This document shows positions 36,974 through 64,000 of a stretch of 64,000 nucleotides of DNA, piece by piece. The notes below the pieces were generated by a model. The model saw only the letters and a program-made list of their open reading frames with translations, ran no database searches and had not been told where the DNA came from. The position numbers and the translations under genes are program-made. The stretch covers positions 248,001 to 312,000 of the forward strand of contig NZ_LR732817.1 of NCBI RefSeq assembly GCF_902506195.1, given 5' to 3'. This DNA comes from Citricoccus sp. K5 (lineage in GTDB: Bacteria; Actinomycetota; Actinomycetes; Actinomycetales; Micrococcaceae). Positions within the stretch are counted from its first letter, which is position 1, and each line of letters opens with the position of its first letter.

Positions 36974-36976
36974 TCC

Positions 36977-37025
36977 GAAAGCGTCCCGGTTCACTGTCGT
37001 TGTCGGGTGGGAACGGGACGCTTTC
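36977..37025 (-). terminator. Hairpin downstream of the 5'-nucleotidase gene
   Basis: GAAAGCGTCCCG (36977-36988) pairs with CGGGACGCTTTC (37014-37025) around a 25-nt loop. It separates the two SLH-protein genes. Confidence 0.6.
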
Positions 37026-37057
37026 GACCGCGAGTGGTCCGGGGTGGGCTGGTCGGG

Positions 37058-37606
37058 CGGTGTCAGTCTTGGGTGGCGATCATGGTCTCGTAGCGGTAGA
37101 GGAGGGTGGCGACCTCGGCCCGGGTGATGCTTCGGTCGGGCTGGTAGGTGCCGTCGTGGTAGCCCACGGACAGTCCCTCGCTGGCGAGCCAGGTGATGGC
37201 CTGGTAGGCGGCGTCACTGGTAGGGACGTCGGTGAACTCGGTGTCCTCAGGGCCTATATGTTCTGGGTCGATCGCCCGGTATAGGAAGGAGGCGAACTCA
37301 CTACGGGAGATGTGACGGGTCGGCTTGAACTCTCCGTCCTGGTAGCCGTGGGTGATCTCGTGGTCCCTCGCCCAGGAGATCGGCTCGTAGTGAGTGTGTT
37401 CAGCGGCGACGTCGGGGAACGGCTTGCTCTCGGGCGTGTATTCCGGGTCCAGGTAGCGGTAGAGGAAGGCCAGGGACTCGCCGCGGGAGATCTCCCGGTC
37501 CTTGCCGAAGGACCCGTCACTGTAGCCGTGGGTCAGGCCGGTCTCCTGCATCCACCGTACGGGGGCGAAGTGCCTCGAACCGGGCTGATTGTCCGAGAAG
37601 TCCTCC
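37058..37606. repeat. 549-bp direct repeat, copy B (triple-SLH cassette)
   Basis: Identical partner of 33757-34305. The boundaries match the SLH-encoding 3' end of the 5'-nucleotidase gene. Confidence 0.97.
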
Positions 37607-39747
37607 GGGACATCGGTGCCGATTGTGAGGGCCGAGCGGACCTCGGTGGTGGACTCGTAGGCGTCGTCGTAGGCAACGGTCATGACCAGTTCGCCCCCGC
37701 CGGTGACCTCGGGTGCCTGCAGGGTGGACAGGTCTGCGGATTCGCCGTCTGCTGCCACCTCCACGGTGCCGACCTCCACGGCCTCGCCCTCGGCCGGCTG
37801 GAAGACCACGGAGACCGAGGTGGCATCACCTGCGCCGTCGGAGTCCATCTCGAGGTTCTCCAACGCCAGGGAGAGCTGCGCGCCGGGGGCGGCGGTGCCA
37901 GTTGCGTCCTTGACCTCCACCGCCTTCTTGGCGAAGTCCGGGCGGATATCGCCGGACGCAGCGGTCTCGGCCTGCACATACTCCTGGAAGGCCTGGTTGT
38001 CCATGATGCCCAGGTCGACCTTGTTTTCCTGACCGGTGGCGAAGCCCTCGTAGCCGTCGGGGGCGGAGTTCTCCGTGCCCACCCAGGAGTCATCGGCGAG
38101 GAAGGACAGGGTGCCGATGGTGTACATCTCGTCCAGGGCCACGGGCTCGCCGGAGATCCAGATGCCGGTCACCTTGTCGTCCTGTGGCCGCGACTCGTCA
38201 TAGGTCCAGGTCAGTTCCTCGGACCAGCCCAGGTGCAGGGTCTTGTTGCCGTTCTTCCAGTTCTCCTCGAGGACCTGCTTGAGGGAGGAGCCCGGGATGT
38301 CGAAGTAGGTCAGCGTGTTGCCGAAGGGAGCGAAACTCAGGATTTCTCCGAGGGTGACTTTGCCGTGGAGCTCGTCCGGCTTATCAGCGAAGGAAGGGGT
38401 GGCAACGAACTGGTCGTACAGCAGTTCGGAGCGCAAACCACCGGAATTGGTGACGCCGAGGTCCACGTCAGGGTTGTTCAGGGAAATTCGGTCTTTGAGG
38501 GCATTGGCGGCCCAATTGCCCAGGGTGCTCTCCTGGCGGCGTGTTCCGCCGGCACCCCAGGACCCGCTTTCTTCGATGCGGGTCTGATAGTCGGTGGTGA
38601 TGGAGGCGTCCATCTCGCCGATAACGGTTCCCTGCAATTCCGCGAACTCCGCGACGGCGGCCTGCTCGAGCGAGTAGACCTCGGCCGTGACCTCGGACTC
38701 GGCGGCGGCCTCGTCCGGGTCCTGCTCGGAGCGGTCGATCAGGTCACCGGTGTAACCGAGAACATCCTTGGAATCGGTGTCGATCTCGAGTTCCACGGCA
38801 GCAAGCAGGCTGCCGGATTGACCGGCCTGCATGACCGGACGCTCCTTACCGCCTGCGGTGGTGGTGTCGTAGTCGTATGTCTGGTGGGTGTGACCGTTGA
38901 AGATCACATCCACAGATTCGTCAGTGCCGTTGACTATGGAGTCGAACACGGAGGAGTTTTCCACCTCGGCGGCCAGCTCGCCGTTGCCGGGGGCACCATC
39001 GTGGTACGAGGCCACAATGACGTCGGCAGTGCCGGCGGCCTCGATCTCCTGGACCACGCCGTTGACGCCCTCGACCAGGTCGATGACCTCGTTGCCCTGC
39101 AGGCCGGAGCCGGTGGTGGTGGCGTAGAGGTTGTTCGGAACGGCGCCGATCACGGCGACTCGCACCCCGTCCACCTCGAAGATCTCGTGATCGGTGAGTA
39201 CCGGCTCCTTGGTTTCCGGGTCCACGAAGTTCGCGGCCAGGAAGTCGAAGTCGGCGATGTCCATGACACGGCCGGTGAGGTCGTCCATGCCTTTGTCGAA
39301 CTCGTGGTTGCCAGCGGCCGAGACATCCAAGCCGAGGGCGTTCATGATCTCGAGCGTCGGCTCATCGGCCTGCGCGTTGGAGACCGACTGGGAAGCACCG
39401 ATCAGGTCGCCGGCGGTGGTGAGCAGAGTGGAGCCCTCGCCGTTGGCGCCTTCGAACGCGGCCCGATAGTCCTCAACCGTGTCCGCAAACTGGGTCCCGG
39501 TGTACTTGTCCGAAAGTGCCCCGTGGAAGTCGTTGAAGCTGAGGATGGAGATCTTCTCGGTGCCCTCGGCCGCCGGCTCGGCGGCGGCCTTCACGGCCTC
39601 ATCGGTGGACACAGAAGCGCCGGCCCCTGTGGAGGCCGGCGTGGGTGGTTCGGTGGTGGCAGACGCAGGCAGTGCGACGGCGGGAGCGGCAACGAGCCCC
39701 GCGGTCAGAACACCTGCCAGCAAGGACTTCCGTGACTGCAGCGACAT
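37063..39747 (-). CDS. Secreted 5'-nucleotidase/metallophosphatase with C-terminal SLH domains
   Basis: An 894-aa exported UshA/YfkN-type enzyme that hydrolyses nucleotides to nucleosides and phosphate. A signal peptide (residues 1-30) precedes the metallophosphoesterase domain (~45-290), with metal ligands in SILSFNDFHGAL, AGDLIGAS, GNHEFDKG and FNGHTHQTY. The 5'-nucleotidase C-terminal domain (~370-590) contains LGNWAANAL, TNSGGLRSELLY and the substrate segment FAPFGNTLTYFD. A short Ig-like stretch leads to three SLH repeats (~716-890). AGAGGG precedes the ATG. With the neighbouring nuclease it would form a surface pathway from DNA to free phosphate and nucleosides. A degenerate PHO-box-like pattern lies upstream (39857-39887). 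Confidence 0.92.
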   Translation of the reverse strand: MSLQSRKSLLAGVLTAGLVAAPAVALPASATTEPPTPASTGAGASVSTDEAVKAAAEPAAEGTEKISILSFNDFHGALSDKYTGTQFADTVEDYRAAFEGANGEGSTLLTTAGDLIGASQSVSNAQADEPTLEIMNALGLDVSAAGNHEFDKGMDDLTGRVMDIADFDFLAANFVDPETKEPVLTDHEIFEVDGVRVAVIGAVPNNLYATTTGSGLQGNEVIDLVEGVNGVVQEIEAAGTADVIVASYHDGAPGNGELAAEVENSSVFDSIVNGTDESVDVIFNGHTHQTYDYDTTTAGGKERPVMQAGQSGSLLAAVELEIDTDSKDVLGYTGDLIDRSEQDPDEAAAESEVTAEVYSLEQAAVAEFAELQGTVIGEMDASITTDYQTRIEESGSWGAGGTRRQESTLGNWAANALKDRISLNNPDVDLGVTNSGGLRSELLYDQFVATPSFADKPDELHGKVTLGEILSFAPFGNTLTYFDIPGSSLKQVLEENWKNGNKTLHLGWSEELTWTYDESRPQDDKVTGIWISGEPVALDEMYTIGTLSFLADDSWVGTENSAPDGYEGFATGQENKVDLGIMDNQAFQEYVQAETAASGDIRPDFAKKAVEVKDATGTAAPGAQLSLALENLEMDSDGAGDATSVSVVFQPAEGEAVEVGTVEVAADGESADLSTLQAPEVTGGGELVMTVAYDDAYESTTEVRSALTIGTDVPEDFSDNQPGSRHFAPVRWMQETGLTHGYSDGSFGKDREISRGESLAFLYRYLDPEYTPESKPFPDVAAEHTHYEPISWARDHEITHGYQDGEFKPTRHISRSEFASFLYRAIDPEHIGPEDTEFTDVPTSDAAYQAITWLASEGLSVGYHDGTYQPDRSITRAEVATLLYRYETMIATQD

Positions 39748-57685: not shown

Positions 57686-58714
57686 ATGGCCGCAGCACCA
57701 CGCTCCGGATCGTCCCGCGGGAACAGCGGCAAGAAGGGACCCCTCAAGGGCACCGGTGGGCTCGGCCGGAAGGCACTGGAGGGCAAGGGTCCCACGCCCA
57801 AGGCCGAGGACCGCGTCTACCACAAGGCCCACCGCACCAAGCAGCTATCCGAGCGCTCCAGCGCCAAGAACGCGGGCCGGTCGGGAGGCCGCAACACCCG
57901 CTCGCGGCATGCCGACGAGACCGTGGCCGGCCGCAACTCGGTGGTCGAGGCCCTGCGCGCCGTCATCCCCGCGAAGGCCCTGCATGTGGCCACGAGGATC
58001 GAGATGGACGAGCGGGTCCGTGAGGCCCTGAAGCTGGCCGCCGAACGCGGCGTGCCGGTGATGGAGAACTCCAAGCCCGAACTGGACCGCATGACGGATG
58101 ACGCCGTCCACCAGGGCTTGGTGCTGCAGGTCCCGCCCTATGAGTACGCCGATGCCCTGACGCTGGCCCGCCAGACCATGGAGAAGTGGGAGAAGGGCTA
58201 CCTCACGGCCCCGCCGCTGTTCATCGCGCTGGACAGCATCACCGACCCCCGCAACCTCGGGGCCATCATCCGCTCCGCCTCTGCCTTCTCGGCGCACGGC
58301 GTGGTGGTGCCCTCGCGCCGCTCCGCCGGGGTGACCGCGACCGCCTGGAAGACCTCGGCCGGTGCTGCCGTGCGGGTCCCCGTGGCCCAGGCCGGCAACC
58401 TGAACACCATCCTGCAGGACTTCAAGAAGCTCGGGATCTTCGTCCTCGGGCTCGACGGCGGCGGGGACCAGTCCCTGCCCGGGTTGCCGTTGGCCACGGA
58501 TCCGGTGTGCCTGGTGGTCGGTTCGGAGGGCAAGGGACTGTCCCGGCTGGTCCGCGAGAACTGCGACCAGATCATCTCCATCCCGATCGCCTCGGACATG
58601 GAATCGCTGAACGCCTCGATGGCGGTGGGCATCTCGCTGTACGAGATCGCCGTCCAGCGCGCCGGCGGCCGGCCGGGGCAGACCGCGGAAGGCGGGCCGG
58701 GAGGCCAGTCCTGA
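57686..58714 (+). CDS. rlmB: 23S rRNA (guanosine-2'-O)-methyltransferase RlmB/TrmH family
   Basis: A 342-aa SPOUT methyltransferase. A long basic, Gly/Lys/Arg-rich N-terminal tail (residues 1-65) precedes the substrate-binding domain (VAGRNSVVEALRAVIPAKAL). The SpoU catalytic domain has FIALDSITDPRNLGAIIRSA, VVGSEGKGLSRLVRENCDQI and IPIASDMESLNASMAVGISL. A GAAAGG ribosome site precedes the ATG, with a TAGACT -10 box at 57641-57646. glgX overlaps its stop (TGATG). G2251 is the standard RlmB target; the target here is inferred from the family. Confidence 0.93.
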   Translation: MAAAPRSGSSRGNSGKKGPLKGTGGLGRKALEGKGPTPKAEDRVYHKAHRTKQLSERSSAKNAGRSGGRNTRSRHADETVAGRNSVVEALRAVIPAKALHVATRIEMDERVREALKLAAERGVPVMENSKPELDRMTDDAVHQGLVLQVPPYEYADALTLARQTMEKWEKGYLTAPPLFIALDSITDPRNLGAIIRSASAFSAHGVVVPSRRSAGVTATAWKTSAGAAVRVPVAQAGNLNTILQDFKKLGIFVLGLDGGGDQSLPGLPLATDPVCLVVGSEGKGLSRLVRENCDQIISIPIASDMESLNASMAVGISLYEIAVQRAGGRPGQTAEGGPGGQS

Positions 58715-60855
58715 TGACAGTGGTGTCTCAGACGGTGCCCGGTCACCGTTCGCGGCCCTTCCCCCTGGGTCTCGCGGACCGGGTCCCCGGCGTCGCGGAG
58801 GTGAACGGCGCGGTGAACCTGGCGGTCTATGCCCCCGGGATCACCGCCCTGGACGTGGTGTACACGGACCCCGCGTTCCCGGTGGACGCCGTGCCGACGG
58901 CCGTGGACCTGCACCGGGTGGCACTGGAGGACGTCACGGACCACGTGCATCACGGCACTGTCCCGGGATTGGGCCATGGCAGTCTCTACGCGCTGGTGGC
59001 CCATGACCGGCGGATCGCCGGGGTGTCCCGGAGCGGCCGCCGGACCTCCGGCACACCAAAGCCCCTGCCCCAGTTGCTGGTCGATCCCTATGGCGATGCC
59101 GTGGTGGAGCGCAACGGGCTGTACTGGTCCACCCGGGTGCGCCGGGACTTCGACTGGAACGGGTCCGGCCGGCCCCACACCCCGCTGCGGGACACCATCG
59201 TCTACGAGGCCCACGTCATCGGCCAGACCAAGCTGCACCCGGGCATCCCGGCCGAGCTGCGCGGGACTTACGCCGGACTGGCACACCCCGTGATGGTCGA
59301 GTACCTGCGTCACCTGGGCATCACGGCCGTCGAGCTGCTGCCGGTGCACCACCACCGGGACGAGGACCACCTGCAGCTGGCCGGACTGGAGAACTACTGG
59401 GGGTACAACACCGTCAGTTTCTTCGCGCCCCATCCCGGTTACGCCACCGCCGCCGCACGGGCCGGCGGGCCCCAGGCCGTCCAGGACGAGTTCAAGGGCA
59501 TGGTCAAACTACTGCACGAGGCCGGGATCGAGGTCCTGCTGGACGTGGTCTATAACCACACCGCGGAGGAGGGCCCGGGTGGACCGACCTTCTGCTGGCG
59601 CGGCCTGGGGGAGGAGCACTACTACCGGCATGACGCCGCCGGCAGGTACCTGGACACCACGGGCTGCGGCAACACGCTGAACTTCAACGATCCGCAGGTG
59701 GTGCGGATGACACTGGACTCGTTGCGCCGCTGGGTGACGGACTTCCAGATCGACGGCTTCCGCTTCGACCTGACCGTCACCCTGTGCCGGGACGGCGGCC
59801 ACCACTTCACCCACCGCCACCCCTTCCTCGTGGCCGCCCAGGCGGATCCCATCCTGGCGGGGACCAAGCTCATCTCCGAGCCGTGGGACGTGGGCAGCGG
59901 CGGTTGGCAGACCGGTCACTTCCCCCTGGGCTGGTCGGACTGGAACGACCGCTTCCGGGACGTGGTCCGGGACTTCTGGGTGGCGGACCGCGGTGCCCTG
60001 GAGCGCGGCGACCGCGGCGGGTCCACCGCGCGGCTGGCCGACTGCCTGTCCGGGTCCGCCGGGCTGTTCGAGTCCTCCGGGCGCTCCGCCCTGGCCTCCG
60101 TCAACCTCGTGACCGCCCATGATGGCTTCACCCTGCAGGACCTCGTGTCCTACAACCAGAAGCACAATGAGGCGAACGGAGAGGACAACCGGGACGGCAC
60201 CTCCCACAACCGGTCCTACAACCACGGGGCCGAGGGACCCACGGAGGAGGGAGACATCCTCGATGCCCGTGCCACCACGGCCCGCAACCTGATGGCCACC
60301 CTGCTGCTGTCCCTGGGCGTACCCATGATCACCGCCGGTGACGAGATCGGGCGCAGCCAGGGCGGCAACAACAACGCCTACTGCCAGAACAACGGCATCT
60401 CGTGGACGGACTGGAAGCTCGATGAGCGGCAGGAGCGCATGCTCGCCACCACGCGCCGCCTGATAGCGATCCGCAAGGAGTTCCTGGCCGGTCAGCCATA
60501 CTCCTACCCGGCCCGGGAACTCGGCTACCTCAAGTGGTTCGACCATGAGGGGCAGCCGATGACCGAGGCGGCCTGGACGGACTCCGGGCAGCGGCTGCTC
60601 CAGTTGCTGATCGGCGTCCCCGGCGGCCGCAGCACCGGTCTGATCGTGTTCAACGGCGGGCTGGAGACGGTGCCCTTCCGGCTGCCGGTGCCGGAGGAAC
60701 TGCGAGGCATCACCGGCGAGCACGGGGCGGACCTGCAGGCCTTCACCCTCCAGCTCTCAACAGCCCTCCACGGCGAGCTCCGCCGTGGCGCCCTCTTCGC
60801 CCCGGGAGACCGGGACCTGATCGAGGCCACCTCGATCACCCTCTACTCCGTCTGA
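58714..60855 (+). CDS. glgX: Glycogen debranching enzyme GlgX/TreX (isoamylase type)
   Basis: GH13 isoamylase-type enzyme that removes alpha-1,6 branches from glycogen or limit dextrin. The 713-aa protein has an N-terminal CBM48-like region (NGAVNLAVYAPGITALDVVY) and an (alpha/beta)8 barrel. Its motifs are DVVYNHTAE, nucleophile DGFRFDLTVTL (near residue 346), acid/base LISEPWD (near 387) and transition-state TAHDGFTLQDLV (near 467). The ATG at 58714 overlaps the rlmB stop; the longer frame inside rlmB is rejected. It is slightly shorter and more diverged at the N-terminus than textbook GlgX. It pairs functionally with glgP about 1.3 kb away. Confidence 0.92.
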   Translation: MTVVSQTVPGHRSRPFPLGLADRVPGVAEVNGAVNLAVYAPGITALDVVYTDPAFPVDAVPTAVDLHRVALEDVTDHVHHGTVPGLGHGSLYALVAHDRRIAGVSRSGRRTSGTPKPLPQLLVDPYGDAVVERNGLYWSTRVRRDFDWNGSGRPHTPLRDTIVYEAHVIGQTKLHPGIPAELRGTYAGLAHPVMVEYLRHLGITAVELLPVHHHRDEDHLQLAGLENYWGYNTVSFFAPHPGYATAAARAGGPQAVQDEFKGMVKLLHEAGIEVLLDVVYNHTAEEGPGGPTFCWRGLGEEHYYRHDAAGRYLDTTGCGNTLNFNDPQVVRMTLDSLRRWVTDFQIDGFRFDLTVTLCRDGGHHFTHRHPFLVAAQADPILAGTKLISEPWDVGSGGWQTGHFPLGWSDWNDRFRDVVRDFWVADRGALERGDRGGSTARLADCLSGSAGLFESSGRSALASVNLVTAHDGFTLQDLVSYNQKHNEANGEDNRDGTSHNRSYNHGAEGPTEEGDILDARATTARNLMATLLLSLGVPMITAGDEIGRSQGGNNNAYCQNNGISWTDWKLDERQERMLATTRRLIAIRKEFLAGQPYSYPARELGYLKWFDHEGQPMTEAAWTDSGQRLLQLLIGVPGGRSTGLIVFNGGLETVPFRLPVPEELRGITGEHGADLQAFTLQLSTALHGELRRGALFAPGDRDLIEATSITLYSV

Positions 60856-60870: not shown

Positions 60871-60936
60871 GCAACTGGAGGTCGAATTCGCACCATTTCC
60901 AGGGCCGAACGTCCGGAAGGGGGTGCGACTTCGACC
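60871..60936. repeat. Palindromic repeat, left copy (imperfect)
   Basis: The 5' arm (60873-60894, containing GGAGGTCGAATTCGCACC) has a partial 3' arm (60922-60936, GGTGCGACTTCGACC) with one mismatch and the outer part lost. It lies 15 bp after glgX, where it could act as a terminator. The first 24 bases (60871-60894) are the exact reverse complement of 62069-62092. Confidence 0.85.
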
Positions 60937-61067
60937 GCGGGATTTTCTGTTGGAGTGAGAGCAGCGACGCACCGGATTCCTCCACAGCGGATCGGTCACG
61001 GTCTGCCATCCCCAGCGGCGACGTCGGCACGCACCATGGGCGGCCCCGTCCCGTCAGTCTGGGGGCC

Positions 61068-61982
61068 ATGGACACCCCTGACATCATCACCCTCGCTGAG
61101 GCCCGCACGCTGGGAACGAGCCGGAGAGCATTGCAGAACTCCCGAGCCGAGCATCACCTCCATGGTCTTTACAGTCCGTTGCGTCGGGAACGAGATGGCG
61201 AGACGCTTCATCGATCATTGCTCAGGGCGGCCTCATCGGCGGCCACGGATGTGGCCTCCCATGAATCCGCCGCCCGACTGTGGGGGTTCCCGGGCTCGGT
61301 GGTTCCGAGCGAGATACAGCTGCTGTCCATCTCCGGAGATCGACGGCGGCGGGTCCAGGGGATGGCCGGGCGACGCGGACTGGTGCTCCCGGGCGAAACG
61401 ACAGTTCTCGGTGGGATCCCCGTCACCACCCCCGCTCGAACCTGGCTGGACCTGGCCCGCACCTCTGGTGTCCTGCGGCTAGTCCTCTGGGCCGACTGGC
61501 TGTTCAACCCAGTCTGGGGTGGAGACTGGGAGCGAGAGCCCCTGGCCACGCCGACTGAACTTCGAGCCCTCCTCGACCGCCACCCGGGCAAGCCCGGAAT
61601 TCGCAAGGCGCGCGCAGCCGCGGACCGAGCCAGAGTCGGATCGGATTCGCCGAAGGAAACTGAGCTACGTCTGGCCCTGGTTGATGCAGGACTGCCGGAA
61701 CCTGCGGTGAACCAGTGGATCATCGACCCCAGGACGGGAAGCCGAGTCCACCGAGGCGATCTGACCTACGACGAGTTCCGGATCGATCTGGAGTATGAAG
61801 GCGAACACCACTCCGGACCTGGCCAGGTACAACGGGACATCGCTCGCGCTGAACGACTCCGGGCGGCGGATTGGCTGGAACTGCGTTTTAGCTCGATGCA
61901 TTCTCGGCACGGTTGGCTCCCCGCCGTTCACAAGACCCGAGAGGCCCTCTTGTCCCGTGGGTGGGTGCCCAGGGGAGACTAA
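61068..61982 (+). CDS. DUF559-type nuclease-fold protein with AbiEi-like N-terminus
   Basis: A 304-aa protein. The N-terminal ~60 residues (ITLAEARTLGTSRRALQNSR, HHLHGLYSPL) resemble the winged-helix start of AbiEi/DUF559 proteins. A middle domain carries SHESAARLWGFPG and TTPARTWLDLAR. The C-terminal ~100 residues look like a DUF559/Vsr-related PD-(D/E)xK fold: KETELRLALVDAGLPEPAVN, then GDLTYDEFRIDLEYEGEHH and RDIARAERLRAADWLELRF. The plausible active-site residues are the aspartate of IDLEYEG, the following glutamates and the preceding GD. The role is unknown; such genes are common orphans in actinobacteria. CAGTCT ends 7 bases before the ATG, a near-consensus leaderless -10. The gene is bracketed by matching palindromic repeats. 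Confidence 0.8.
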   Translation: MDTPDIITLAEARTLGTSRRALQNSRAEHHLHGLYSPLRRERDGETLHRSLLRAASSAATDVASHESAARLWGFPGSVVPSEIQLLSISGDRRRRVQGMAGRRGLVLPGETTVLGGIPVTTPARTWLDLARTSGVLRLVLWADWLFNPVWGGDWEREPLATPTELRALLDRHPGKPGIRKARAAADRARVGSDSPKETELRLALVDAGLPEPAVNQWIIDPRTGSRVHRGDLTYDEFRIDLEYEGEHHSGPGQVQRDIARAERLRAADWLELRFSSMHSRHGWLPAVHKTREALLSRGWVPRGD

Positions 61983-62019
61983 GTCGCCCGTGAGGCTTCC
62001 ACATCCCCTTCCGATCCAG

Positions 62020-62092
62020 AACTGGAGGTCGAATTCGCACGGCGTCCAGAGGGCCTGGCCCCGAATACGGTGCGAATTCGACCTCCAGTTGC
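62020..62092. repeat. Palindromic repeat, right copy (perfect 21-bp arms)
   Basis: Arms 62020-62040 and 62070-62090 are exact reverse complements around a 29-nt centre. The sequence is the same as the left copy near 60873. It lies between the DUF559 gene and glgP and could terminate both. Confidence 0.92.
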
Positions 62093-62115: not shown

Positions 62116-64000
62116 TCAGCCGGCGTTGACCACGAGCGCCATCTCGGCCGTCGAGGCCAGCAGTTCGTGCTGCGGCAGGACCCGGACCGAGTAGCCGAAG
62201 GCGCCGGAACGGTCGATCACCAGTGAGCCGGTGAACTGCCAGCGGCCGTCACCCAGGTCCTGGGCCGGGGTCAGCTCCAGAGCGCCGGTGTCGGCCAGGG
62301 TGTCCTCCTCGAGCACGCTGGACGGTTTGGTGCTGACCCGGCCGTACACGGCTTCCACCCGCACGTCCTTGGGGGACAGCTGCCCCAGGCTGATGTAGGC
62401 GGAGACCTGCATCTCGTCGCCGACCTGGGGATTCTCGGAGACGCCGAGCGAATCCACGTGTTCCACGGCCACAGAGCCGAAGCCGCCCCGGACCCTGGTC
62501 TTCCAGGCGGCCAGTTCGCGGGCCCTGGCGTAGTCGTCGGCGTCCATGACCCGCCCCGCCCGCCCGGCTGGCAGGTAGAGCTCGTTGACGTAGTCCTGCA
62601 CCATCCGGTCTGCCGAGGTCGCCGGGCCGAGGGTGGCCATGGTGTGCTTGATCATGGCCAGCCACTGGTGCGGGAGGCCGTCCGTGGAAGCGTCCGACGG
62701 GCCGGCGGCCCCGGCCTGGTCCGAGGGCTCGGCTCCATAGAAGCGCGGCACCAGCTCGTTCTCCAGCAGGCCGTAGAGTGCGGCCGCCTCCACGTCGTCC
62801 CGCTCCTCGGTGGAGGCCGCGGACGAGGCGCTCGGGATGGCCCAGCCGTTCTCGCCGTCGTACATCTCGTCCCACCAGCCGTCCAGTACGGACAGGTTCA
62901 GCCCCCCGTTCATGGCGACCTTCATGCCGGAGGTGCCGCAGGCCTCCAACGGGCGCAGGGGATTGTTCAGCCACACGTCGCAACCGGGCATGAGGGTGGA
63001 GGCCATCTGGATGTCGTAGTTGGGCAGGAACACGATCCGGTGGCGCACCTCGGGGTCGTCCGTGAACCGCACCATCTGCTGGATCATCAGCTTGCCCTGT
63101 TCATCGGCGGGGTGGGACTTGCCGGCCACCACCAGCTGGATGGGGTGCTCCGGATCCGTCAGGAGCCGCTTCAGCCGCTCCGGATCGCGCAGCATCAACG
63201 TCAACCGCTTGTAGGTGGGCACCCGCCGGGCGAATCCGATGGTCATGACGTTCTCGTCCAGCACGGAATCGGTCCAGGCGAGCTCGGCCTCGGAGGCCCC
63301 GCGCTTGCGCCAGGAGGACCGCAGCCGTGACCGCACGTCCGCGATGAGGGCCCGCCGCAGGGTCCGGCGCAGCTCCCACAGTTCCGCGTCGGGGACGTCG
63401 AAGACGCGCTGCCAGTCGTGACCGGCCACGGCGGACGTCCCGAACAGCTCGATCGCCCGGGCTGACACCGTGTCGGAGACCCAGGTGGGGGCGTGCACGC
63501 CGTTCGTGATGGAGCCGATCGGCACCTCATCGGCGTCGAAGCCCGGCCACAGGCCCTTGAACATCTCCCGGGACACCTCCCCGTGCAGCCGGGCCACGCC
63601 GTTGGCGCGCTGGCCGAGGCGCAGGCCCATCACGGCCATGTTGTGCACGCCCGGGGTGCCTCCCTCGTGGTCCTCGGCACCCAAGGCCAGGACATGATCG
63701 AGGGGCACGCTCGGGGCCAGCCCGGCCCGGAAGAACTGCTCCACCAGGGCGCGGTCGAATCGGTCGATCCCGGCCGGCACCGGTGTGTGCGTGGTGAACA
63801 CGGTGGAGGCCCGCACCGAGGTCAGCGCGGTCTCCCAGTCCAGCCCGGCGGACATGAGCTCCTCGATCCGCTCGATGCCCTGGAAGCCGGCATGTCCCTC
63901 GTTCGTGTGGTAGACGGACGGCACATCCGTACCGGTGAGGCGTGCGTACAGGCGCAGCGCCTTGACCCCGCCCATGCCGAGCAGCAGCTCCTGCTGCAGT
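62116..64000 (-). CDS. glgP: Alpha-glucan/glycogen phosphorylase (5' end outside window)
   Basis: PLP-dependent enzyme that releases glucose-1-phosphate from glycogen chains. The visible ~628 C-terminal residues include NEGHAGFQGIERIEEL, TVFTTHTPVPAG, SITNGVHAPTWV and FARRVPTYKRLTLML. They also include CDVWLNNPLRPLEACGTSGM and the PLP-lysine segment GMKVAMNGGLNLSVLDGWWD. The frame is open to the window edge (LQQELLLGMGG...), so the ATG at 63975 is internal and the true start lies beyond 64000. The motif spelling fits the long-type (TIGR02094-like) alpha-glucan phosphorylases of actinobacteria. It is convergent with the DUF559 gene. Confidence 0.93.
   Translation of the reverse strand, partial: LQQELLLGMGGVKALRLYARLTGTDVPSVYHTNEGHAGFQGIERIEELMSAGLDWETALTSVRASTVFTTHTPVPAGIDRFDRALVEQFFRAGLAPSVPLDHVLALGAEDHEGGTPGVHNMAVMGLRLGQRANGVARLHGEVSREMFKGLWPGFDADEVPIGSITNGVHAPTWVSDTVSARAIELFGTSAVAGHDWQRVFDVPDAELWELRRTLRRALIADVRSRLRSSWRKRGASEAELAWTDSVLDENVMTIGFARRVPTYKRLTLMLRDPERLKRLLTDPEHPIQLVVAGKSHPADEQGKLMIQQMVRFTDDPEVRHRIVFLPNYDIQMASTLMPGCDVWLNNPLRPLEACGTSGMKVAMNGGLNLSVLDGWWDEMYDGENGWAIPSASSAASTEERDDVEAAALYGLLENELVPRFYGAEPSDQAGAAGPSDASTDGLPHQWLAMIKHTMATLGPATSADRMVQDYVNELYLPAGRAGRVMDADDYARARELAAWKTRVRGGFGSVAVEHVDSLGVSENPQVGDEMQVSAYISLGQLSPKDVRVEAVYGRVSTKPSSVLEEDTLADTGALELTPAQDLGDGRWQFTGSLVIDRSGAFGYSVRVLPQHELLASTAEMALVVNAG

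Follow-up and report, generated by a model that had tools for sequence, protein, structure and literature searches.

Among known bacterial systems, an enzyme is tied to dispersed palindromes in those of the REP type. REPINs are inverted doublets of fixed length with compensatory change, and the GI doublets measure 71 bp between the first residues of their 16-mers (PMC3116915, accessible part). The genes for the associated enzymes, the RAYTs, are flanked by their own repeats, and the REP tags are GTAG/CGTC (PMC3733652, accessible part). In the literature found, as far as its text was available, wherever REP-type dispersed bacterial palindromes have an enzyme assigned to them at all, it is a RAYT-like tyrosine transposase. 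The locus described here resembles these systems in its layout and differs from them in its enzyme.

One nuclease gene between two hairpins

The locus lies near the end of a stretch of 64,000 nucleotides from Citricoccus sp. K5, the whole of which is called the window below (Table 1). The original prediction for this DNA was a DUF559 nuclease-like gene bracketed by matching palindromes, and most of its description holds. The outer ends, 60871-60894 (GCAACTGGAGGTCGAATTCGCACC) and 62069-62092, are indeed perfect reverse complements over 24 bases, and the gene listed in Table 1 is the only one seen between them. Each end is also a hairpin, as had been claimed: the right one has 71 bases, with perfect 21-bp arms and a 29-base loop, and the left one, said to have a decayed 3' arm, has 15-bp arms with one mismatch and a 27-base loop.

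Table 1. Features of the bracketed segment and its neighbours (window positions)
Feature	Position	Strand	Remarks
Left palindrome	60871..60936	.	outer arm 60871-60894; hairpin 60880-60936
Right palindrome	62020..62092	.	hairpin 62020-62090
AbiEi-DUF559 fusion gene	61068..61982	+	304 aa
glgX neighbour, outside the element	58186..60855	+	open frame ending as glgX; 58186 is a mechanical ORF start
glgP-like neighbour, outside the element	62116..63975	-	convergent frame

Folded as single-stranded DNA, the right hairpin reaches -29.6 kcal/mol (z -8.5), a value that none of 200 shuffles equals; for the left hairpin z is -3.84, and again 0 of 200 shuffles are as good. The 18-base arm has three exact copies in the window, against 0.04 expected from 100 shuffles with up to three mismatches allowed. 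The left palindrome starts 15 bases past the glgX stop codon (at 60855), and the right one starts 37 bases past the stop of the nuclease gene, between this gene and the convergent glgP; both neighbours owe their names to the original prediction and to a reading of their translations. In the window sequence, no T run is present 3' of the right hairpin.

The other hairpins of the window are of the terminator kind, with the exception of a second long-loop one at 36976-37026. It has 13-bp arms and a 25-base loop (CGAAAGCGTCCCG...), stands 36 bases off the end of a gene called at 37063-39747, and is built as the bracketing elements are.

What kind of protein is encoded between the hairpins? Structure comparison with VIA-align, together with profiles, gives residues 1-189 an AbiEi-like two-domain fold and residues 192-300 a Vsr/EDxHD-like nuclease fold, and the best fold matches of the family enzyme are likewise Vsr/EDxHD and AbiEi. 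The DUF559 label suits the protein at the level of its family, in which 32 of 88 aligned members match it at E 0.01; for the window protein itself, Pfam returns AbiEi_1 below the cut-off (E 0.0058), MTES_1575 at 0.15, and nothing else. MTES_1575 is matched by 51 of the 88 at E 0.01; AbiEi_1, AbiEi_4, DUF2726 and PvuRts1I-like_N complete the Pfam families found at this threshold, and no member has a Y1 transposase match. In PADLOC, AbiEi models match the N-terminal half (E 4.6e-12) and are the only ones to match the window protein; the nuclease half of a relative, L228, gives weak matches to PDC-S37, mREase_II and ZorE (E 2e-4 to 1e-3).

In the alignment of the 88 members, E197 and D231 are invariant, and H248 and D257 nearly so. 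Compared with two congeners, the window gene has dN/dS values of 0.23 and 0.18, and the range is 0.11-0.34 across eight orthologue pairs; a 98% identical copy is present in Citricoccus zhacaiensis (G001). As read from these alignments, a conserved putative active site is under purifying selection.

Bracketing and private palindromes across the family

Bracketing is a general pattern of this gene family. The family was found in 42 of 59 related genomes searched, with 119 genes, and flanks were taken for 101 of these, the window's own included (18 were left out). The flank test asked for a repeat scoring at least 18 shared between the 400-base upstream and downstream flanks. Such a repeat is present at 67 of 97 usable family genes versus 4 of 137 other genes (Fisher p 1e-29), the latter taken from the window (39), other Citricoccus loci (30) and G188 loci (68) rather than from every tested genome, and many of them at loci selected for holding a solo palindrome. 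The enrichment that the original prediction looked for at genes of this kind is therefore found, and it extends beyond the genus: 21 of 29 genes are bracketed within it, 39 of 59 in other genera of the family and 7 of 9 in other families. An earlier version of the test placed 67 of 99 genes above the 99th percentile of 495 mismatched flank pairs, one of which reached 109.5.

A stricter rule, which demands hairpins of matching sequence on either side of the gene, is passed by 39 of 101 genes. Their hairpins have a median of 61.5 bases; the upstream hairpin ends a median of 122 bases before the start codon, and the downstream one begins 18 bases after the stop codon. At the threshold of the flank test, 30 of the 97 genes have no matching repeat, and at least two loci below it, L167 and L095, proved to be bracketed on closer inspection. 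At L095 (2430-3740) one palindrome lies to the left of the nuclease gene and two lie to the right, all of one type.

At the scale of the class, the family is present in 212 of 296 sampled genomes at E 1e-20. Of 30 loci returned, from the best-scoring genomes, 24 came from genomes not used before, and 17 of these score at least 18. Searches of phage and plasmid collections at E 1e-10 gave one phage record and three Arthrobacter plasmid records. The term terminal inverted repeats, as originally applied to the segment, is partly right: of 66 bracketed genes, 24 have left and right copies that agree better as direct repeats and 18 have copies that agree better when inverted, with about equal agreement in the other 24.

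By comparison of the same 66 genes, the palindrome is private to each protein lineage, usually as a hairpin of about 60 bases. None of the 2106 pairs below 50% protein identity reaches a palindrome similarity score of 15 (eight reach 13). Palindromes are shared by 1 of 18 pairs at 50-60% identity, by 11 of 16 at 60-80%, and by 5 of 5 above 80%, and the protein and palindrome distances are correlated (Mantel r 0.56, 0/999). The two copies of a gene may remain alike even as orthologues diverge: at one conserved site, the left and right copies of L111 are nearly identical to each other and differ from those of its orthologues L119 and L120. At another site, the adjoining flanks of G000 are 90 and 96% identical to those of G001, and 86 and 93% to those of G002, and G000 holds one gene and palindrome type where G001 and G002 hold the other gene with the other type. 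The G001 and G000 genes share 66% DNA identity over 682 bases, and the right-flank identity between G000 and G001/G002 returns at most 5 bases from the palindrome end. Within the genus the cassettes seem mostly inherited, and they occupy few shared sites, which indicates that movement is slow.

Solo copies and sites with or without them

Further copies of the palindrome do exist in the window genome, as the original reading supposed. Those of the GGTCGAATTCGCACC type are a variant hairpin at 503826-503891 and two half palindromes. The type of another resident gene, L097, is CAACTGAGTCGCAGAAATT; it recurs at four more places, three of them clear hairpins, and none of the four has a family gene closer than about 14 kb.

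A separate observation concerns a solo palindrome of which C. zhacaiensis (G001) has an intact copy (L135:2020-2082). In the window genome its halves are at L149:5147-5187 and L150:2988-3028 (C1, 2.695 and 3.545 Mb), about 850 kb apart, in opposite orientation and broken in mid-loop. After each half comes IS-like sequence with a CTGTCAACCT end, of which 131 bp are 99% identical between the two sites. In G002, about 2 kb of sequence break up this same palindrome close to its middle, and the other half has been lost. The split palindrome looks like the outcome of an IS entering the loop, followed by an inversion.

In G020, the first 800 kb contain 60 strong hairpins. One cluster of ordinary terminators, with loops mostly of 3-6, accounts for 26 of these; another 14, with loops of 3-9, stand alone, and two with loops of 3 and 4 make up a terminator-like pair. 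Each of the remaining five clusters (8, 3, 3, 2 and 2 members; 52-91 bp) matches one resident family gene. Eight such genes are known in G020, and two of the five clusters have their gene beyond this stretch. L167, overlooked by the flank test, is bracketed by members of one cluster. The palindromes of L169, L176 and L180 have no further copies within these 800 kb. The solo copies of G020 lie in gaps of every orientation, four of them read as convergent.

The high-copy case is genus g91 of family f38. Here the arm GTTGATCWTGGAG has up to 148 + 131 matches per genome (279, in G198), and the reversed arm, used as control, has none in all 22 genomes (one in one genome under a looser search). In the 22 elements read in G188, all 11 of the T-type are 72 bp long, and 10 of 11 of the A-type are 61 bp, the other being 60. 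Among distinct f38 elements, 20 of 28 A-type are exactly 61 bp (range 59-62), and 24 of 27 T-type exactly 72, the others being 71. The outer 13 bp of these distinct elements hardly change, 11 of them being fixed by the search pattern, and inner pairs change on both sides and stay paired. Two-sided changes keep pairing above expectation at pairs 14-20 in the A-type, and at pairs 15, 18-20 and 22 in the T-type.

The nuclease genes of this genus fall into two clades, the T clade being 44-47% identical to the A-clade query. A-type palindromes stand at 13 of 13 A-clade loci, 10 of which have them on both sides and the others on one, and T-type palindromes at 9 of 9 T-clade loci, again on both sides in 7 and on one in the others. 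These counts cover 22 of 25 places, three gene fragments having been dropped, and only hairpins with a TGATC-type motif, which leaves the A/T base free. Across the 22 genomes, 11 have both the cognate gene and at least eight arm matches, a cut-off picked after the counts were known; nine have neither, one has the gene only and one the palindromes only. Among those counted as having both is G208, with its cognate gene in two pieces, and in the gene-only genome, G156, the palindrome is a variant, GTTGATCATGGGC. The palindromes-only genome is G188, with 220 arm matches and no gene of either clade at E 1e-20; the enzyme is thus not needed to keep the palindromes.

At three places, L282:2495-2590, L260:1352-1434 and L269:1362-1444, palindromes beside the nuclease gene sit within longer complementary flanks (12 bp at one L282 copy), as if the element had entered the loop of an older hairpin. 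Entry of solo copies into the loops of host terminators finds no support as a rule: the mean extension score over 22 solo elements of G188 is 2.0 versus 1.35 for shuffled pairing, with 2 of the 22 reaching 6.

Are there sites from which the element is missing? An empty glgX-glgP junction, as envisaged from the start, was found in the congener G002 (glgX DNA 94% identical), where the two genes are adjacent and palindrome-free; no clear target duplication is seen there, though the junction may have diverged. In G004 and G006, glgX and glgP are separated by a short spacer with what appears, at a low hairpin threshold, to be a single decayed palindrome. For one solo element of G188, the orthologous site was read in 13 of 21 matching genomes. 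It is present in G130 and G245 and missing in G114, G286 and G097, with 11, 0 and 41 bases between the anchors; G227, G208 and G236 carry other palindromes instead, and five genomes are unclear.

In G227 and G208 the palindrome at this site is one of 37 bp, GGTGACNTGAGCGCCAAC-T-GTTGGCGCTCANGTCACC. The same palindrome is present at L308, L309 and further f38 places; in several genomes of f38 it is often clustered at intervals of 100-200 bases, and it is perhaps of another kind. Our own expectation that it would have a bracketed cognate gene was given up, none being seen at the places listed.

As for placement, with genes called by third-position GC, 10 of the 22 solo elements of G188 are in convergent gaps, one is in a divergent gap and five are inside a rough gene call; for the 15 of Citricoccus the numbers are 8, 0 and 3. 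The base rate at the same G188 loci is 17 of 46 gaps convergent (element sites included) and 10 divergent, and in the window 6 of 28 and 7 of 28, respectively. Measured against these rates, solo copies favour convergent gaps only modestly, and their avoidance of promoter-type gaps is the clearer of the two tendencies.

Possible explanations and relation to known systems

Bracketing, private palindromes, dispersed solo copies, near-fixed length, compensatory changes and presence or absence at a site are established at the level of sequence, and from them we infer binding, cleavage, spread caused by the enzyme, and mobility. The explanation that we favour, and hold to be probable, is a palindrome-gene-palindrome cassette, whose product is the cognate enzyme of its own palindrome and spreads it by cutting and repair. 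The original idea, in which palindromes of the REP kind belong with a nuclease-fold protein resident in the genome, gains support from the copies, the enrichment and the empty site. Weighing against the favoured explanation are the 30 of 97 genes below the flank threshold, the palindromes kept in G188 with no gene of either clade, the slow movement within the genus, the expectation given up for G227 and G208, the modest excess of solo copies in convergent gaps, and the absence of a clear target duplication.

How might such a cassette work? The AbiEi-like half would recognise the conserved outer arm, probably as a dimer or on the extruded hairpin; the recognised arm would be about 13 bp in the best-studied family, within an inverted pair that is 60-72 bp long in all. 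The Vsr/EDxHD-like half would nick or cut at the palindrome, and as the break is repaired, the palindrome, or in rare cases the entire cassette, would be copied or moved to new places between genes. Solo palindromes would then be non-autonomous members that the enzyme disperses in trans, in the way proposed for REPINs and RAYTs, and would be tolerated where a hairpin harms least, often by the 3' ends of genes. AbiEi binds two 23-bp inverted repeats (PMC7319586, accessible part), and by analogy the AbiEi half may be a natural palindrome reader. In the available text of PMC3943268, an enzyme akin to the nuclease half is said to dimerise on a target of nearly 60 bp, close to the 61-72 bp of the elements here.

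Homing is an unlikely variant of this scheme. Solo palindromes would be targets spread by other means; the nuclease would cut one of them, and break repair would copy the gene in and leave a palindrome on each side of it, in the manner of free-standing homing endonucleases. Insertion by homing normally destroys the target of the enzyme, but the gene here has a palindrome to its left and to its right. A simple target duplication would not give the better inverted match of 18 of 66 genes, and the high-copy solo elements of near-fixed length are left unexplained.

Do the palindromes serve the host instead? In that case the AbiEi-like half would use the upstream copy as an operator to repress its own gene, the downstream copy would be a terminator or second operator, and the solo copies would be sites of a regulon or of chromosome structure. 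AbiEi antitoxins autoregulate through inverted repeats (PMC7319586, accessible part), and the upstream copy lies a median of 122 bases before the start codon in the 39 genes measured; solo copies near 3' ends and the dN/dS of 0.11-0.34 in eight orthologue pairs are also in line with a host function. We nevertheless think it improbable, given how rarely solo copies lie in divergent, promoter-type gaps (1 of 22 in G188, 0 of 15 in Citricoccus), how their presence varies between relatives at one site, and how strictly the putative nuclease residues are kept; up to 279 arm matches per genome is the behaviour of a mobile repeat.

The PADLOC match of the N-terminal half to AbiEi, the weak defence-nuclease matches of L228 and the occurrence of Vsr-like nucleases in conflict-type fusions (PMC3710099, accessible part) bring to mind a defence or addiction module, in which the nuclease would attack incoming palindrome DNA or the palindromes would mark self DNA. 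It is a very improbable one, as the cassette has no second gene, the window protein matches AbiEi models alone, and the palindrome copies reside in the host's own genome. Hardly credible at all are ordinary intrinsic terminators on both sides, matched by chance or by a genome-wide consensus. In their favour are the position of the palindromes close to 3' ends, the hairpins that these would form as RNA, and the terminator-kind hairpins elsewhere in the window. Against them, other genes seldom have a matched pair (4 of 137). The alternative raised originally, a repeated terminator that came to lie on both sides of the gene, is insufficient as a full explanation, since the palindromes differ by protein lineage and the ordinary terminators of G020 cluster apart (26, loops mostly 3-6). 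The elements may also terminate transcription.

A broader proposal is that AbiEi-Vsr nucleases are a second, independently evolved class of enzymes driving dispersed palindromes, that each enzyme and its private palindrome of 60-72 bp are retargeted together, and that much of the orphan repeat content in genomes of actinobacteria is theirs; here our opinion is evenly divided. If true, these enzymes would amount to a collection, supplied by nature, of nucleases specific for hairpins and long sites. Were a second class of unrelated enzymes to leave the genome signature of REP, this lifestyle would seem to have evolved twice, and a family present in 212 of 296 genomes sampled from the class would gain a role. 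Dozens of natural, co-diverging enzyme-palindrome pairs would help to work out how specificity switches, and nucleases with very long, hairpin-forming targets would be on offer.

Where do the cassettes stand among known systems? An intrinsic terminator has a short stem, a small loop and a T run, unlike the right hairpin of the window, with its 29-base loop and no T run. With IS elements, their MITEs and the TIRtrons of PMC3733652 (accessible part), the cassettes share the flanking of a gene by terminal repeats and the presence of related repeats at other places. They differ in that each terminus is a hairpin and that there is no known transposase; no clear target duplication is seen, though the junction compared may have diverged. 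The AbiEi antitoxins of type IV toxin-antitoxin systems have the same two-domain fold, but here it is fused to a nuclease, and no AbiEii-like gene is adjacent (the window neighbours are glgX and glgP). The EDxHD homing endonucleases, such as I-Bth0305I, and Vsr share the Vsr-like nuclease fold and its E..D..H..D residues. They differ in that the enzyme here has the AbiEi two-domain half and no intron or intein is seen around its gene; moreover, unlike that of the EDxHD homing endonucleases, its own site is uninterrupted, if the palindrome is that site, and palindromes remain on both sides.

The likeness to REP/REPIN-RAYT systems covers the dispersed extragenic palindromes of near-fixed length, with conserved ends and a compensating stem, the cognate enzyme gene flanked by its own palindromes, the several independent pairs per genome, and the dispersal of solo copies between genes (8 of 37 being inside a rough gene call). 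However, the enzyme is an AbiEi fold fused to a Vsr/EDxHD-like nuclease instead of the HUH/Y1 tyrosine transposase of RAYTs; the arms start with GCAACTGGAGG in the window and GTTGATC in f38, and not with the REP tags, as given in the accessible part of their source; and the palindromes of lineages less than 50% identical are unrelated. Since both the enzyme and the palindrome tag fail, the system is not a member of REPIN-RAYT. In the open-licence literature, as far as its text was available, no report was found of a palindrome association of DUF559, MTES_1575 or AbiEi nucleases, and neither the enzyme nor the palindromes belong to any described repeat system found; a stricter classing could place them as a further form within the REP-enzyme kind. 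By analogy, we read them as an enzyme-palindrome mobile system that would work as REPIN-RAYT does, with an unrelated enzyme.
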